DNA of 32,698 nucleotides. Source: a virus. Location: the IMG/VR virus record IMGVR_UViG_3300006919_000217, positions 1-32,698 of that record. One strand, given 5' to 3'. The stretch's first letter is position 1; each line of letters begins with the position of its first letter. Below, piece by piece: positions 11,485-31,989 of the stretch. A program made the position numbers and the translations under genes. Below the pieces are notes generated by a model. It saw nothing but the letters and a program-made list of their open reading frames with translations, did no database searches and had not been told where the DNA came from.

Positions 11485-14400
11485 CTTCCCCCCAGACATA
11501 GCCTTGACCGTATTGGTTCGCCCAGCGGGTTGCCCCGCCAGTGACACTCTCTGGCTTCCCTGCTCCTTCACCCAACGGAGCAACTCCAGGCATCTGTGAT
11601 CGGAACTCCTCGATGGCAGCGTCAGCCTCGGGACCGTGGCCCAACTCGTGGTGGATACCCCGAGTCACATCAAGCGCCCAGTGCTTCCGTGCCACAGGAG
11701 GCCAGTCGAGACGGTGCTGCTCCCAGGTCACCGACTGCACCTCTCGGGGCAGCACCCCGTGCCGAGCTGCCACGTTGCGATAGGCGTCAGCGATGAGGGG
11801 GTAGGCACCCTTGACCCCGGCCGACACCGATGAGGGCGTTCCCAGAATGCTGAGCGACGACAGACGGCCTCGGGTGCCGTCGTAGCTCAACAGGGCATTG
11901 CGGTCCAGCTTGGTGTCGATCTCCCTGGAAGAGGTGGTCACCGGGATGCCGATAGCGATGCCTGCTGCATGCGTGTCGACCGTGAGTTCTCCGAAGTCAG
12001 CATCGAAGGGGTCCCGCAGGTTGTTGTAGAAGGACCGGATCTTCATGTCGACACCCATCAGGTCATCGACGGCGGTGTAGTCCTCGGTCTTGCCCGCTCG
12101 GAACATCTCCACCGACCGGGCCATGTTGTACTCGCTCTGCCACCGGAAGCTGGCACCGCCAGGGAGAGTGACTCCTTCGTCCTGAGAGATGGAGCGGATG
12201 ACGTGGGCAGCAGCTTCGGGACTCAGGTCACTGACCCGCTTGCCAGCGGTAATGTCAGGCAGCTCACCCTCACCGGCAGGTTGTTTGCGGCGACCATTGA
12301 CGTCGTCGAGCAGACTGTTGGCCGACGCAGCCATCTCCTCGGTGAGCACTGGGTTGGTGCTGAGGACACGCATGACCTCAGCGGCCATCACCATGTTGGC
12401 GTCCCAGTCGCACTGCGGGCTGAGCCGAGCGATGATGCCGTAGGCGATGTCAGGGTGGACGCCAGCCTCGATGGCCAAGGTCTCCCCGAACTCATTCCCC
12501 AGCGGGTACCACGAGCGCCACTGCTCCGAGTCGGGGTTAGTGATGCCTCTGAGGAAGCTCTGCTCGATGTTGTGCTCCATCAGAGCCACAGCCTCTTCGA
12601 GGTCAGTGACATTGCCGAAGCCAGCCAGCTCCTGAACTCGGCCAAGGACCTTGGCCTCCCACTTGGGGTCCCGCTTCGCAGCGCTGGCGTGGTCTGATCG
12701 GTACTCGGATGCTCGGTTGTAGTCGCCCTTCTTGCCTGAGCCGGGAGTGGCTACATTGAGTCGCCCAACGCCAGTGGCCCAGTTCCCGTGGGTCTTCTGG
12801 TCGTGGGTGGCGTGCTTGGAAAGCCGAGACTCCAGCGCAGCCCTAGCTGCAACACCGAGCGCCTCACGAACCTCACGAGTGTCGGCCTCGAACTCAACCG
12901 GCTCGTTGTCCATCCACCAGTTTGCTACCTGAACAACGGTCATCTTAGACCAGTCAGGGTGAGTGCCCTTCCCGACGAACTGCTCTTCGTCGGTCCCGTC
13001 GTTGACGTAGCCGTCTCGGTCTCGGTCAATCATCTGAGTCGGCTTCGTCCCGTACCAGACACCGTCTTCTCTCAAGTACTGGTGGAACGATTCCTGAGCT
13101 TCGTCACCCAAGTCCCGTCGAATGATCTCGGACATTTCAGTAGGTGACTGCGGGCGGTGCTCACGCTTCCACTTCTTGAAGCCCTTCAGTGTGTTGTCGA
13201 GACCGGGGGCGTCCAGTGGTTCTCGGCCAATGGGGTGGGTCGCCTTCCACCCCCAGTCCGCAGCCAGGCGGCTCACTGCTTCTTCAGGGCGCAAGAAGTC
13301 GTAGCCCTGGCGCATCCATGTGTAGCCGCCATTGAACAACTGGCCCAGCGACGTGGCCCGAGTCTCCATCCGCTCATACCCAGCCCTGGCGAACTGGTCT
13401 TCCCAGTGGCGCACAAGAGCAGAGCCAATCCCTTGGTCTTGGAACTCTTCCTTCATATTGAAATACTGCATTTGGACGTAGGGGCTGGGCGGGGCATCAC
13501 CTTCGAGATAGTGCAAAGTTCGAGTGAAGTCGCCTATAACCACTTCGCCCTCATTGCCGAAGTTCACCTTGCCATAGACGCTGATCGTGCGGTCAGGGTT
13601 TGGCGAAGCCATCGTGACCTCTACTTCGATACGAGGTTGGTGGTCACCAGAAATGCTCAGCTCGAAAAGTTCCTTGGCGTGCTGAAGCGCTATCTCTCGA
13701 CTAATTCCAGACCCATTCGCCAGCTTGCGAAGATCCTTCACATGGATCGTCGGGTCCGTTGTGTCAGTCAGCTCCCCCACCTTGGTGGAGTAGCCACCTC
13801 GTGCCCAGCTCCCGTGCGACTTCTGGTCGTGGCCACCGCCGTAGTGCTTGGCGATGTCGTTGAGGGACTCGACCTCGTCGTACCAGTCGGTGCCGTAGGG
13901 AGCCTTGTGCCACGGACCCTTGTGGAGGAACCGGCGAGACATCGAGCTGATCTCCCAGTCGGCGTACTCCTCAGCCGTCTCGGCCTTGAAGAACGTCTTG
14001 TGGTCCTCGGGGGTGAAGACCTGATCCATCACCGGGTCATAGACATTACCCTCGGCCGTCTTGGCCCAGGCATGAGCGATGCGGGGGTTGCCCATCCCCT
14101 CGATGGAGCCGTGGACGAGGGTGGCCTTTGCCTGCACCGCACAGTCCCACGCCAGCTCGTAGCACTTGCCGATGCGGTCCTTGAACTCAGCAGGGGCATC
14201 CCAGTCTGGACGAGGCAGCTCCCCGCCACCGTTGGCCCAATTACTGTGGCTCGACTGGTCGTGACCGCCACCTTCGTGCTTCTCCAACGGCATGAGGGTC
14301 GGGTAGGGGTCGAGCTTGCCGAACTCATCATGGAAGACGAGGCCAGTGGTGCAACGGCAGTGGGGGTGGGCAGGCGGGTGGACGATCTGCTGGCCCTTGT

Positions 14401-23329: not shown

Positions 23330-23478
23330 ATGAGGAATGCAGGGGGATGAGGGGTTGTGAGGAGGGAGATGATTTGAGGTTGGGCTTGCACACTCGTGGT
23401 GGTGCCCTCTCCGGCCTCTGCTCCCTGCATCCCCGTTTAGGCCTGTGACCTGGGGTTATGTAGTGCTTCCCCGTTAAG

Positions 23479-23537
23479 AGACTAGGTAGATATCACACGC
23501 TGTCAAGCTGTCTAGTCTACCCCTGGCTCCCTGTCAA
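23479..23537 (-). promoter_or_regulatory. Tandem minus-strand promoter candidates for the structural operon
   Basis: Two perfect -35 hexamers TTGACA stand 31 bases apart inside the direct repeat AGCTTGACAG. The upstream one (23537-23532) has TAGACA 17 bases on (23514-23509). The downstream one (23506-23501) has TAGTCT 16 bases on (23484-23479), which fits the loose actinobacterial -10 TANNNT. Both point at the zinc-ribbon gene, about 340 bases away. The assignment is by sequence only. Confidence 0.45.
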
Positions 23538-24080
23538 GCTCATCACACACATTTCTTCAGGCTCATCCTAGCTTTACATAATGACTATTTCCGGCGGGTA
23601 GTAAGGGCTATGACCTCTCCACCAGGGCACGGGTGATTGCTGCTGGCTGGAGGGGCTGCGGTGTGGGTGCTGCTGAGGGCCTATCACAGGTACCGCTAGG
23701 GCCACTAGGGCCTCTAGGAGACCACCTCTAGGGCCACTACTAGGACCACTACAGGTACCCCCTACCCACAGCCTCTCTTACCCCCTGTGTGTGCTCTATC
23801 CCCTCTAGTAGGCCCTCTAGCACTCTCTACCCCCGCATCTTGGATGCCTGAGTGGATTCTCATCCCGGCTCTCACAGGGCCTGTGGTGTGTCTCTCAGGG
23901 CAGCCAACTACAGAACAGCCTTTCTCCCCCACCCCCTCCACACGAATAGGCCAATGAGGGGCTTGTCATATGCCCCCTCTACAGGCTCTCATTGATGCGC
24001 TTCCCCTAAGAGGCTCTCTCGAAGAAGCCCCTATACGGCCCCCTCTAGAAGGCCCTCTCTATGCAAGCGTGCTAGTAGGT

Positions 24081-24093
24081 GCAAGTGTGCAAG
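24081..24093. promoter_or_regulatory. GCAAGTGTGCAAG element (copy 4)
   Basis: This is the full-length copy of the recurrent element, preceded at 24063-24075 by a related GCAAGCGTGCTAG. It lies upstream of the only plus-strand gene candidate. Confidence 0.4.
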
Positions 24094-24189
24094 TACATCT
24101 CTAGGGAAAGGCCCTCTATAGCGGCCTCTGTGTGTGCTCGTGCATGGCGGGCCTACAGCACCTCGTGGGAGCTGTGGCACCTCTACACC

Positions 24190-24378
24190 ATGGAGTCCCG
24201 CTCAGAGGAAGACATCACCATGGTACGGCTCTATCTGGAGGAGCTGGGTGAGCTGTCGGGTATTTCAGCTCCCGCCGTGCTCGACCTGCACGAGTTCTGC
24301 ACCTCAGACGATGCCGATGTCTGGGAGCTGGCCATGGTCACCATCGAGCGCATGGACGATCCCCTCGGCTACGTCTAG
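24190..24378 (+). CDS. Small acidic protein, the only plus-strand gene candidate
   Basis: From the ATG at 24190 the frame gives 62 residues; GTG starts at 24130 or 24079 would extend it and cannot be excluded. Sequence: MESRSEEDITMVRLYLEELG, LSGISAPAVLDLHEFCTSDD, DVWELAMVTIERMDDPLGYV. It is strongly acidic and probably all-helical. Its stop lies 17 bases from the stop of the thermonuclease gene on the other strand (convergent). Three CCATGG words occur in it with ATG in frame, as in its minus-strand neighbours, which supports coding. No clear Shine-Dalgarno is close to the start. A small acidic protein beside nuclease genes could be an inhibitor or DNA mimic, but this is speculation. Confidence 0.45.
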   Translation: MESRSEEDITMVRLYLEELGELSGISAPAVLDLHEFCTSDDADVWELAMVTIERMDDPLGYV

Positions 24379-24395
24379 GAAGCGACCTCTCAGCT

Positions 24396-28826: not shown

Positions 28827-29210
28827 TTACTTGAAGTACTTGCTCAGGGTCCCCTCGGGACCTTCCTGAGTCCAGCGTAGGCCGAGGGTGTGACAGAGGT
28901 CGATGGTGTCAGGGCGGAGGCTGGCCATGGCGAGCTTCACGTCACCGTTGTGCAGCGACCTGTGGCACTCATGGCAGAGGGCTACACCGTTGGCCGGGTC
29001 GTCATGGTGCTCGGGTGCGCAATGGCTCCTGAAGATGACATGGTGCGCAGCGAGGCTGTTGCCGGGTGGTGTGTCCCAGGCCTTGCAGATGGCGCAGCGG
29101 TACTTCGACCGGCGCAGCACCTCCTTGCGCCACCGACCCATGGAGCCTGGGTTGCGGCTCTTCTTGGGCAGGCCCTTCTTGAAGTTCGGCTCGACGTGGC
29201 GCTCGTTCAT
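28827..29210 (-). CDS. HNH endonuclease
   Basis: The ATG at 29210 is chosen. The frame is open further upstream, but that part (encoding GFNSLAW) translates the T-arm of the structured RNA at 29215-29336 and is not protein-like. The protein has 127 residues. HNH landmarks are CAIC (39-42), AAHHVIF (H56, H57), DPANGVALCHECH (N74, C79, C82), and a final His in SLHNGD. The Cys pairs bind structural zinc. The N-terminal 35 residues are basic and would contact DNA. Such free HNH enzymes act in packaging, recombination or homing. It lies between the RNA and the Cas4-like gene. No ribosome-binding site is visible, which is odd. Confidence 0.85.
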   Translation of the reverse strand: MNERHVEPNFKKGLPKKSRNPGSMGRWRKEVLRRSKYRCAICKAWDTPPGNSLAAHHVIFRSHCAPEHHDDPANGVALCHECHRSLHNGDVKLAMASLRPDTIDLCHTLGLRWTQEGPEGTLSKYFK

Positions 29211-29214
29211 GGTG

Positions 29215-29336
29215 TGGGACCAGGCCAGGGAATTGAACCCTGGAGCAGTGTCGAATCTCCCCAAAGGAGAAAGTGGAGTTTCGCACTGCCGCTGACTACC
29301 TCGGCGGTAGGTAGCCGTGAACCAAGCCCTGGCCCC
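29215..29336 (-). ncRNA. tRNA-like structured RNA with a T-arm and an oversized middle arm
   Basis: Starts two bases after the polymerase stop and ends just before the HNH start codon. On the minus strand, the ends GGGGCCAGG and CCTGGTCCC pair over 9 bp (one G-U). A perfect T-arm CCAGGG-TTCAATT-CCCTGG sits next to the 3' strand. Between are CTACCT-ACCGCCG-AGGTAG (6 bp) and a long arm GCAGTG...CACTGC whose top is TCTCC/GGAGA. It is not a standard tRNA: 122 nt, 3' end ACACC rather than CCA, and no normal anticodon loop with U33. It might be a degenerate or atypical tRNA or another tRNA mimic. It is far too short for tmRNA. Confidence 0.5.
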
Positions 29337-29337
29337 G

Positions 29338-31989
29338 TCATTCTGGGAGTACTCCGAGTGAGGAGAGCGCTCTACTGTCCCTCAGCTTCGCCAGCACACC
29401 GATCAGTTCTCCTTTGGTCTCCCAATTCTTACCACCAGTCACGACCTTCGAGGGGGTTCTCTCGATGATGTCGTCCACAGAAGTGTAGGGCTGGGCCTCT
29501 GCAAGCGCTACTGCTGCCTTCGGCCCGAGCACTGAGGAGAGACCTCGGCGGATGGCCCCCTTGTCGTGGTCGAGGGTCCAGTTGACACCCGAGATGTTCA
29601 CGTCGGGGCTGAGGAGGCGGATGCCAACCCGCCGTGTCTCGGCCATGTACTCCTTCATCTTCGGGCCATGGGTGGTGGCCAGCAGGGCCGTGTGGAACTC
29701 CAGCGGATGGTGGACCTTCAGATAGGCCAGCTGGTAGCCGAGGAGCGCATAGGCCGTGGCATGAGCCTTGTTGAAGCCGTAGGCAGCGAAGCCCTCGACC
29801 AACTCCCACGCCCGATCAATCTCACCCTCCCACATGCCATGGTTGTGGCACAGGCGGTCGAAGTCAGCCTTGGCTCCCGCCACGAGGGCGTCAGAGTAGT
29901 CCGAGTAGCCACCCTGGGCGTGCTTGCCCTTGACGGCGGTCAGGAAGTCGTTGAGCTTGTCGACCGGCATCCCGAGGTCCCGAAGGATGGCCAGCACCTG
30001 CTCTTGGAAGACCGGCACGCCATGGGTCTCCCGAAGGTGCTTCTCGAAGATGGCGTGCGGGTAGGTCACCAGGGAGCTGTCGGCCCGGTTGGCGATGAAG
30101 GCCGAGGTGTAGCCATGGTCGATGGTGGCGGGCCGGTACAGGGCGTTGATGAGGATGAGGTCCCGCACCGTCTTGGGCTTCATCTCCTCGCAGCCCTTGG
30201 CAGCGGTGTAGCCCTCAAGCTGGAAGATGCCCGTTCCCGGCTTGCCCTTGCGGAGCATCTTCATGGTTTCCTTGTCGTCGAGAGGAATCCACGAGAGGTC
30301 ACCGGCTGGCTTGCCCAGGAGCTTCAAGGCGTGCGCCATGGTCGAGAGCGAGCGCAGGCCCAGCAAGTCGATCTTCACGAAGCCTGCGTCTTCGACGTCG
30401 TCCATCGTCATCTGAGTGACGGTGGTGTCAGAGCTGGCGATAAGCATGGTCGGAATCCAGTCGGTGACTCGCAGCCCCTCCTGGCTCAGGACGAAGCCCG
30501 CAGCATGAGCACCACCCGAGGTCCGCAGCGGCTGCTTGGCCAACTCGACGAGGTTGCCTGCCGTGGAGGGGTCGACCTTGGCCAGGTCATACACGTCCTT
30601 CACTCGGCCCAGCTTGCGGGGGAAGTCGTCACCCAAGAGCTTGCGCTGCCCGCTCATGTACTTGACAAAGACGCTGCCTCGCCCGGTGTCGTCGTCGAAG
30701 CCCATGCGGTTGAAGGTGCCGATCTGGGTGAGGTCGTACTTCTCGGCCAAGTAGCTGACCACGTCGGCCCGTCGGGTGTCCTCGATGTCGAGGTCGATGT
30801 CGGGTGGTCGCACACGGTCAGGCGTCAGGAAGCGGTCGAAGGTCAAGTCCCAGTAGATCGGGTCTGCTTGGGTGAAGCCGAGGAGGTGGCATACGATGGA
30901 ACCGGTGGCCGAGCCTCGGGCCATAACGAGGATGTCGTTCTCCTCGGCCCATGAGACGTAGTCGTAGACGAGGAGGAAGTAGTCCTCCATGCCCAGCTCC
31001 TTGATCACGCCCATCTCGTAGGCGATGGCATCGACGTAGCGCCGGTCGCCCCAGTGGTCGCTGGCAGCGAAGCGATCGTTGACGACCTCTTCGAGGGTCT
31101 TCGGCTGGTCGAGCACGTTGGGCACGACGTACTGGTAGCGGTCCAGTGGTGGAAGTGTGAAAGTGTGCAAGTCAAGAAGGTGCTTTGCGCCGAGCAAGCC
31201 TTCGGTCCAGATGGGTGTGCCTTCGTAGTGGCGCTGGACCCAGGCCGAGCTTGCCAAGTGGTACGAGTCGCCAGGGAAACCAACATCACCAGGCTCGGCC
31301 CCGTAGCTCACGCCCTTCATGAGCGTGTGCAGCTCGCCGTGGGACTTGTGCAAGTAGTGGCAGTCCTGTGTGACCATGATCGGCAGCGACAGCTCACCGG
31401 CCAGGTCGTAGAGCGCCATGGCCATCTTGGTGTCGTCCCACTCGTCGCCATGGTCGGTGTGGTGGTGCTGGACCTCGACGAAGAGTGTCGGGAAGATGTT
31501 GCGCAGCGCCATCGTGATCCTCTTAGCGGCGTCAGGAGCGCCTCTGACGAACGCTTGCTGTACCGGGCCGAAGTAGCACCCGGTCATGCACACGATGCCG
31601 TCGGTGGCCTTCTCAGACGCCATAGCGGCCAAATCAGCCCAATCGAACCGTGGCTTCTTGTGAAAGTTGGGCCGCACATGGCTGAGGGACGACAGCTTCA
31701 CGAGGGACTGGTAGCCAGCGGTGGTGTACGCCAGGAGCGTCAGGTGGTGGCGTGGGGCGTCCTTGTCGTGGACGTCGTCCACAAAGTAGGCCTCAAACCC
31801 AGGGAACGGTTTCATGTCGTGCTGGCGGCAGGCCTTGTAGAGGCTGAAGGCCCCGGTCATGTAGCCATGGTCGGTGAGACCGAGGGCGGGCTGGCCCAGT
31901 GACGCAGCCTTCTCAACCATGGCGTCGACGCTCTGCATCCCGTCGAGGGTGCTGAACTCGCTGTGGCTATGGGCGCTAAACCACGTCAT
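29338..31989 (-). CDS. dnaE: Phage DNA polymerase III alpha subunit (DnaE-like)
   Basis: This frame encodes 883 residues, against about 1160 in bacterial DnaE. The N-terminal PHP domain has FSAHSHSEFS (5-12) and LGLTDHG (36-42). The C-family polymerase core has MARGSATGS (356-364), PPDIDLD (395-401, catalytic D397/D399) and GFVKIDLLGLRSL (536-548, third catalytic D541), with HAAGFV (495-500). The fingers region, YGFNKAHATAYALLGYQLAY, is intact. The C-terminal end lacks the OB fold and tau-binding tail, as is usual for phage versions. It would copy the phage genome. The ribosome-binding site is weak (GAAGAGTGAG). Next gene downstream: the tRNA-like RNA. Confidence 0.9.
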   Translation of the reverse strand: MTWFSAHSHSEFSTLDGMQSVDAMVEKAASLGQPALGLTDHGYMTGAFSLYKACRQHDMKPFPGFEAYFVDDVHDKDAPRHHLTLLAYTTAGYQSLVKLSSLSHVRPNFHKKPRFDWADLAAMASEKATDGIVCMTGCYFGPVQQAFVRGAPDAAKRITMALRNIFPTLFVEVQHHHTDHGDEWDDTKMAMALYDLAGELSLPIMVTQDCHYLHKSHGELHTLMKGVSYGAEPGDVGFPGDSYHLASSAWVQRHYEGTPIWTEGLLGAKHLLDLHTFTLPPLDRYQYVVPNVLDQPKTLEEVVNDRFAASDHWGDRRYVDAIAYEMGVIKELGMEDYFLLVYDYVSWAEENDILVMARGSATGSIVCHLLGFTQADPIYWDLTFDRFLTPDRVRPPDIDLDIEDTRRADVVSYLAEKYDLTQIGTFNRMGFDDDTGRGSVFVKYMSGQRKLLGDDFPRKLGRVKDVYDLAKVDPSTAGNLVELAKQPLRTSGGAHAAGFVLSQEGLRVTDWIPTMLIASSDTTVTQMTMDDVEDAGFVKIDLLGLRSLSTMAHALKLLGKPAGDLSWIPLDDKETMKMLRKGKPGTGIFQLEGYTAAKGCEEMKPKTVRDLILINALYRPATIDHGYTSAFIANRADSSLVTYPHAIFEKHLRETHGVPVFQEQVLAILRDLGMPVDKLNDFLTAVKGKHAQGGYSDYSDALVAGAKADFDRLCHNHGMWEGEIDRAWELVEGFAAYGFNKAHATAYALLGYQLAYLKVHHPLEFHTALLATTHGPKMKEYMAETRRVGIRLLSPDVNISGVNWTLDHDKGAIRRGLSSVLGPKAAVALAEAQPYTSVDDIIERTPSKVVTGGKNWETKGELIGVLAKLRDSRALSSLGVLPE

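Follow-up and report, generated by a model that had tools for sequence, protein, structure and literature searches.

Among the closest described systems to the locus analysed here is mitochondrial tRNA punctuation, with which it shares a structured tRNA unit placed exactly between reading frames with few or no nucleotides left over, and a downstream message predicted to be leaderless or nearly so. Another relevant case is mascRNA, a eukaryotic product of 3′-end processing that is cut by tRNA enzymes without being a tRNA. For cleavage by RNase P, guide complexes resembling the acceptor stem and T-stem-loop are sufficient (PMC11143913). In Cutibacterium (Propionibacterium) acnes, cleavage inside the CCA triplets at tRNA 3′ ends always fell between the Cs (PMC3848588), and in mycobacteria an RTG at the 5′ end of an mRNA is enough for initiation (PMC4633059). 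A literature search, with preprints and most subscription papers outside its scope, found no description of tRNA punctuation in phages.

The window (the whole stretch of DNA analysed, a 32.7-kb virus record) has a GC content of ~61% and is coded chiefly on the minus strand. A tRNA-like element fills the junction between two genes of this strand, beginning 1 nt past the stop codon of a dnaE-like polymerase gene and ending 5 nt ahead of the ATG of an HNH endonuclease gene. The features of the locus are as follows.

29338..31989, minus strand: gene encoding an 883-aa DnaE-like DNA polymerase III alpha, 5′ of the element
29328..29336, minus strand: 5′ strand of helix P1, GGGGCCAGG, acceptor-like, starting 1 nt past the polymerase stop codon
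29291..29327, minus strand: second arm as folded, with GCT/AGC, the 8-nt bulge TGGTTCAC, an 8-bp stem and the 7-nt loop ACCGCCG
29244..29290, minus strand: third arm as folded, an imperfect 47-nt hairpin, GGCAGTGCGAA...TTCGACACTGCT
29225..29243, minus strand: T-arm, 6 bp (CCAGGG/CCCTGG) with the 7-nt loop TTCAATT
29216..29224, minus strand: 3′ strand of P1 as folded, CCTGGTCCC, directly stacked on the T-arm
29211..29215, minus strand: spacer ACACC ahead of the HNH start codon, without a Shine-Dalgarno sequence
28827..29210, minus strand: gene encoding a 127-aa HNH endonuclease, 3′ of the element

The element is a 121-nt RNA encoded on the minus strand (29336 to 29216), and free folding places it in a four-way junction with 0 unpaired nucleotides between helices. 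The initial annotation had proposed pairing ends, a T-arm with TTCAATT and two further arms, and this outline was recovered by free folding, on the minus strand and over 121 nt. P1 comprises 9 bp (GGGGCCAGG/CCTGGTCCC), and the stack of P1 and T-arm reaches 15 bp (9+6), which is longer than in tRNA. The second and third arms are neither a D-arm nor an anticodon arm. The second-arm bulge TGGTTCAC carries a D-loop-like GG, and TTGGTTC in the same arm resembles L019, a more distant DnaE phage, by eye. The loop ACCGCCG has no U33, in agreement with the earlier remark that a normal anticodon loop is missing. The reported lack of CCA depends on how P1 is read: in the 9-bp P1, CCC lies within the helix, and when 12 stacked bp are counted from the T-loop, CCCA follows as the next four bases.

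The minimum free energy of the fold has z = −4.5 on the minus strand (141-nt segment), and the plus-strand copy has z = −3.8. Among 1,629 sampled 121-nt minus-strand windows, the element is narrowly the most stable (−60.8 versus −60.4 for the next), and Markov shuffling of the window (300 replicates, both strands) yielded no P1/T-arm unit of like strength. We are confident that the element is a real RNA structure.

The element shares with tRNA (RF00005) an acceptor stem stacked on a T-arm with a TTCRANN loop. A D-arm and a 7-nt anticodon loop with U33 are not present, as the D-stem is absent and the sole 7-nt candidate is ACCGCCG. ARAGORN found no tRNA in the window, and the Rfam models of tRNA, tmRNA and tRNA-Sec gave no match to the element (156 nt, permissive filters, E ≤ 10). 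A canonical tRNA, a tRNA-Sec and a tmRNA were rejected on these results, and the earlier suggestion of an atypical tRNA, in the sense of a working tRNA, likewise found no support. The tRNA-like domain of tmRNA (RF00023) resembles the element in having an acceptor and T-arm and a D-loop without a D-stem, but the element does not match the covariance model and has no tag frame and no pseudoknots. The likeness to mascRNA/menRNA (RF01684) is confined to the T-arm, which matches over 17 nt with 15.8 bits, under the 42.5-bit cutoff. A search of this type does pick up two separate RNAs of ~80 nt (L251:48-128, plus strand; L245:1092-1173, minus strand), which match full-length RF00023 with 51.6 and 46.0 bits (cutoff 47); the mRNA-like part is absent from both and AC|GTG follows. 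Their sequences are compatible with phage tmRNAs consisting of the tRNA domain only, which is a possible assignment.

A homologue of the exact element was not found, and a search of phage DNA returned tRNA T-arm fragments only. Polymerases of L004-L012, L045 and L048 share 54-60% identity with that of the window, and no element lies 3′ of dnaE in the examined relatives at this level of identity. Two phages of the same identity range have small tRNA-like elements elsewhere (L186 11196-11268; L207 6598-6655). Several relatives have a RecA-like gene 3′ of dnaE (translation judged by eye), and the RNA and HNH gene of the window (28827-29336, minus strand) are located at the site of that gene. The next conserved gene of the window encodes a 255-aa protein (28811-28044, 45-47% identity to relatives), and thus the element and the HNH gene occupy the place of other genes. 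Homologue searches found no close homologues of the HNH protein, and single-protein scans with the polymerase and the portal gave no result. Elsewhere on the densely coded minus strand, ~1 kb (23431-24395) has no ORF of at least 60 aa. The host was assumed to be actinobacterial from the similarity of the polymerase to those of Gordonia and Streptomyces phages and from GC content; assignment via genome contigs gave distant bacterial DnaE only, with no prophage recognised.

Related DnaE phages and whole contigs were scanned with a descriptor that calls for a P1 helix carrying a stacked T-arm. More distant DnaE phages have elements directly 5′ of dnaE (L029/L030, L019, L032/L034 and L042), whose 3′ ends lie exactly 2 nt ahead of the dnaE start, and L017 has a true tRNA-Leu directly 5′ of dnaE. 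The whole contigs contain further elements, several of them followed by a Shine-Dalgarno sequence (G011, G012, G013 and G014). Most elements of related phages have 11-12 stacked bp, the tRNA value. ARAGORN overlooks the non-canonical elements, as does Rfam for those seen here. The element of the window lies 3′, not 5′, of dnaE, and neither sequence nor a shared locus links it to the dnaE-adjacent elements.

In six cases (L029, L019, L032, G011, G012 and G013), the upstream gene is homologous (33-63% amino acid identity) and its stop codon is 5-8 nt ahead of P1; the sequence of the helix varies among them and pairing is kept. The window differs from these six in its 1-nt gap and in following an unrelated gene, dnaE itself. 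The P1 strands of these six, the window and G014 were permuted, the stop codon defining the position of the 5′ strand and the T-arm that of the 3′ strand. As a set, the strands pair best with their own partners, the own-pair sum being reached by 3 of 20,000 permutations, which is approximately what identity and one trivial swap yield. This result is support and not proof, because the scan that found the elements required pairing, though not at this position. A MAFFT alignment of five relatives left the 5′ strands of P1 unaligned and was therefore not used to count pairs.

Other unusual tRNA-like RNAs were encountered. L254, L281 and L290 contain tRNA-Ser-like RNAs with a very long variable arm and a short hairpin inserted in the anticodon loop, different in each, and these RNAs end ahead of AC|GTG. 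A tRNA with normal D- and T-arms and a shortened anticodon arm (L209:18283-18351, minus strand) was overlooked by ARAGORN.

The dnaE start codon of L029, L032, L019, L042 and L017 directly follows N73-C74, i.e., it occupies tRNA position 75. Among phage tRNAs from contigs chosen by one tRNA-ACGTGA instance, with the other tRNAs counted, an ATG or GTG at position 75 is the start of an ORF of at least 60 codons in 19 of 36 cases, compared with 53 of 466 at positions 76-92 (Fisher, 1e-8). In the frame control, frame +1 is partly biased by the TGA that the pattern fixes, and frame +2 is the sole fair comparison. The excess is absent from a second, independently chosen set (0/4); therefore, the arrangement is real but restricted to certain lineages, and it was rejected as a property of all phages. 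The HNH ATG of the window does not directly follow N73-C74 but lies 5 nt past P1, at position 78 with the 9-bp P1 or at 81 by the 12-bp rule. The fit is thus looser than in the relatives, with 15 stacked bp and an ATG 3 or 6 nt beyond position 75.

Taking together the fold, the loci of relatives, the starts at position 75 and the cited work on cleavage and initiation, we infer that the element serves as a processing signal. We would give even odds to its being a non-decoding tRNA-like RNA that punctuates a polycistronic phage transcript. At the sequence level, the acceptor and T-arm half of a tRNA is kept, the decoding half is absent and the gap is filled, and elements of a similar kind occupy gene junctions in other phages. 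This half would be recognized by RNase P at the 5′ side and by the tRNA 3′-end endonuclease at the 3′ side. The host tRNA-maturation nucleases would excise the element, so that the polymerase message would end just past its stop codon and the HNH message would be left with a leader of ~3-6 nt. The latter would be read by leaderless or near-leaderless initiation in the presumed actinobacterial host. Leaderless translation is not general, because a Shine-Dalgarno sequence follows the element in several relatives (G011-G014). If cleavage occurs between the Cs, as in the tRNA 3′ CCA of C. acnes, an RTG at position 75 would be freed; with the ATG 3 or 6 nt further on in the window, cutting after A-C would yield ACC-AUG. 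The initial annotation had also raised a mimic of tRNA that serves either processing or the control of translation. Processing is the favoured half of this option, as the junction elements of relatives keep pairing and abut start codons, and translation control is retained as a rival. More tentatively, and a little short of even odds, some phages, probably actinobacterial, may use non-decoding tRNA-like RNAs and true tRNAs as portable intergenic cutting signals, by which host tRNA-maturation enzymes would cut polycistronic transcripts and set leaderless mRNA 5′ ends, in places to the exact nucleotide.

Several alternatives were considered. The element could be a disused, decayed class II (Ser/Leu-like) tRNA gene that lost its D-stem and kept a swollen variable arm. 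Its T-arm and phage tRNA-Ser genes match weakly over 21-24 nt (E 0.4), its third arm is long, like the variable arm of class II tRNAs, and large-armed tRNA-Ser-like RNAs occur in L254, L281 and L290. We consider this unlikely, as decay of the remainder should have affected the 9-bp P1 and the perfect T-arm too, a nucleotide-exact fit to the gap is not expected of a decaying gene, and orthologous elements elsewhere keep pairing despite changed sequence. An origin by decay would, however, be consistent with the element having later been recruited as a processing signal.

The HNH ATG (29210) lacks a Shine-Dalgarno sequence such as many other genes in the window possess, and this bears out the earlier observation that the element stands in place of the HNH ribosome-binding site. 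The lack would also be expected of a cis-acting leader, whose uncut fold gates the start codon or brings in the ribosome when no Shine-Dalgarno sequence is present. In an alternative fold of equal energy (−64.0 versus −63.8 kcal/mol), P1 is open and the region of the start codon is paired; in this predicted fold (29345-29150, minus strand), the D-like GTTC pairs with GAAC just past the HNH ATG. The alternative fold may be a switch or a coincidence, and equal-energy alternatives are common. Moreover, this type of element precedes varied genes (dnaE, small ORFs and HNH), some with their own Shine-Dalgarno sequence, and a cis-acting leader is accordingly rather improbable.

A stable small RNA acting in trans, either engaging tRNA-binding enzymes or decoying tRNA-cutting host defences, would account for a stable fold with a tRNA-like upper half. 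Host immune systems are known to target tRNAs, Cas12a3 being an example (PMC12851939). The element is nevertheless locked in position to gene junctions and start codons, and the anticodon arm to be cut is absent, making such a role improbable. A chance fold in GC-rich intergenic DNA is hardly credible, since other windows reach a similar minimum free energy at this GC content but none of the shuffled windows contains a T-loop, 6-bp T-stem and 9-bp P1 together.

A further likeness is seen in the annotated isolate Streptomyces phage Jay2Jay, where the 3′ end of a tRNA-Arg is at 88439 and a CDS runs from 88440. In the stretch 70000-90000 of that phage (L539), annotated CDSs begin on the base directly following the annotated 3′ ends of tRNA-Asp(gtc) and tRNA-Arg(tct), at 11589 and 18441 (gp161 and gp148). 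The Jay2Jay tRNAs are canonical, whereas the element of the window has no D-stem or anticodon arm and the ATG is a few nucleotides further. If the proposed use of such RNAs as cutting signals is true, it would explain some phage tRNA remnants and "orphan" tRNAs of little decoding sense, and would provide a testable origin for leaderless phage mRNAs without a promoter. Compared with mitochondrial tRNA punctuation, the unit described here is a non-decoding RNA, is located in a phage genome and has a cleavage that is only predicted; it would then represent the counterpart of that system in a bacterial virus.
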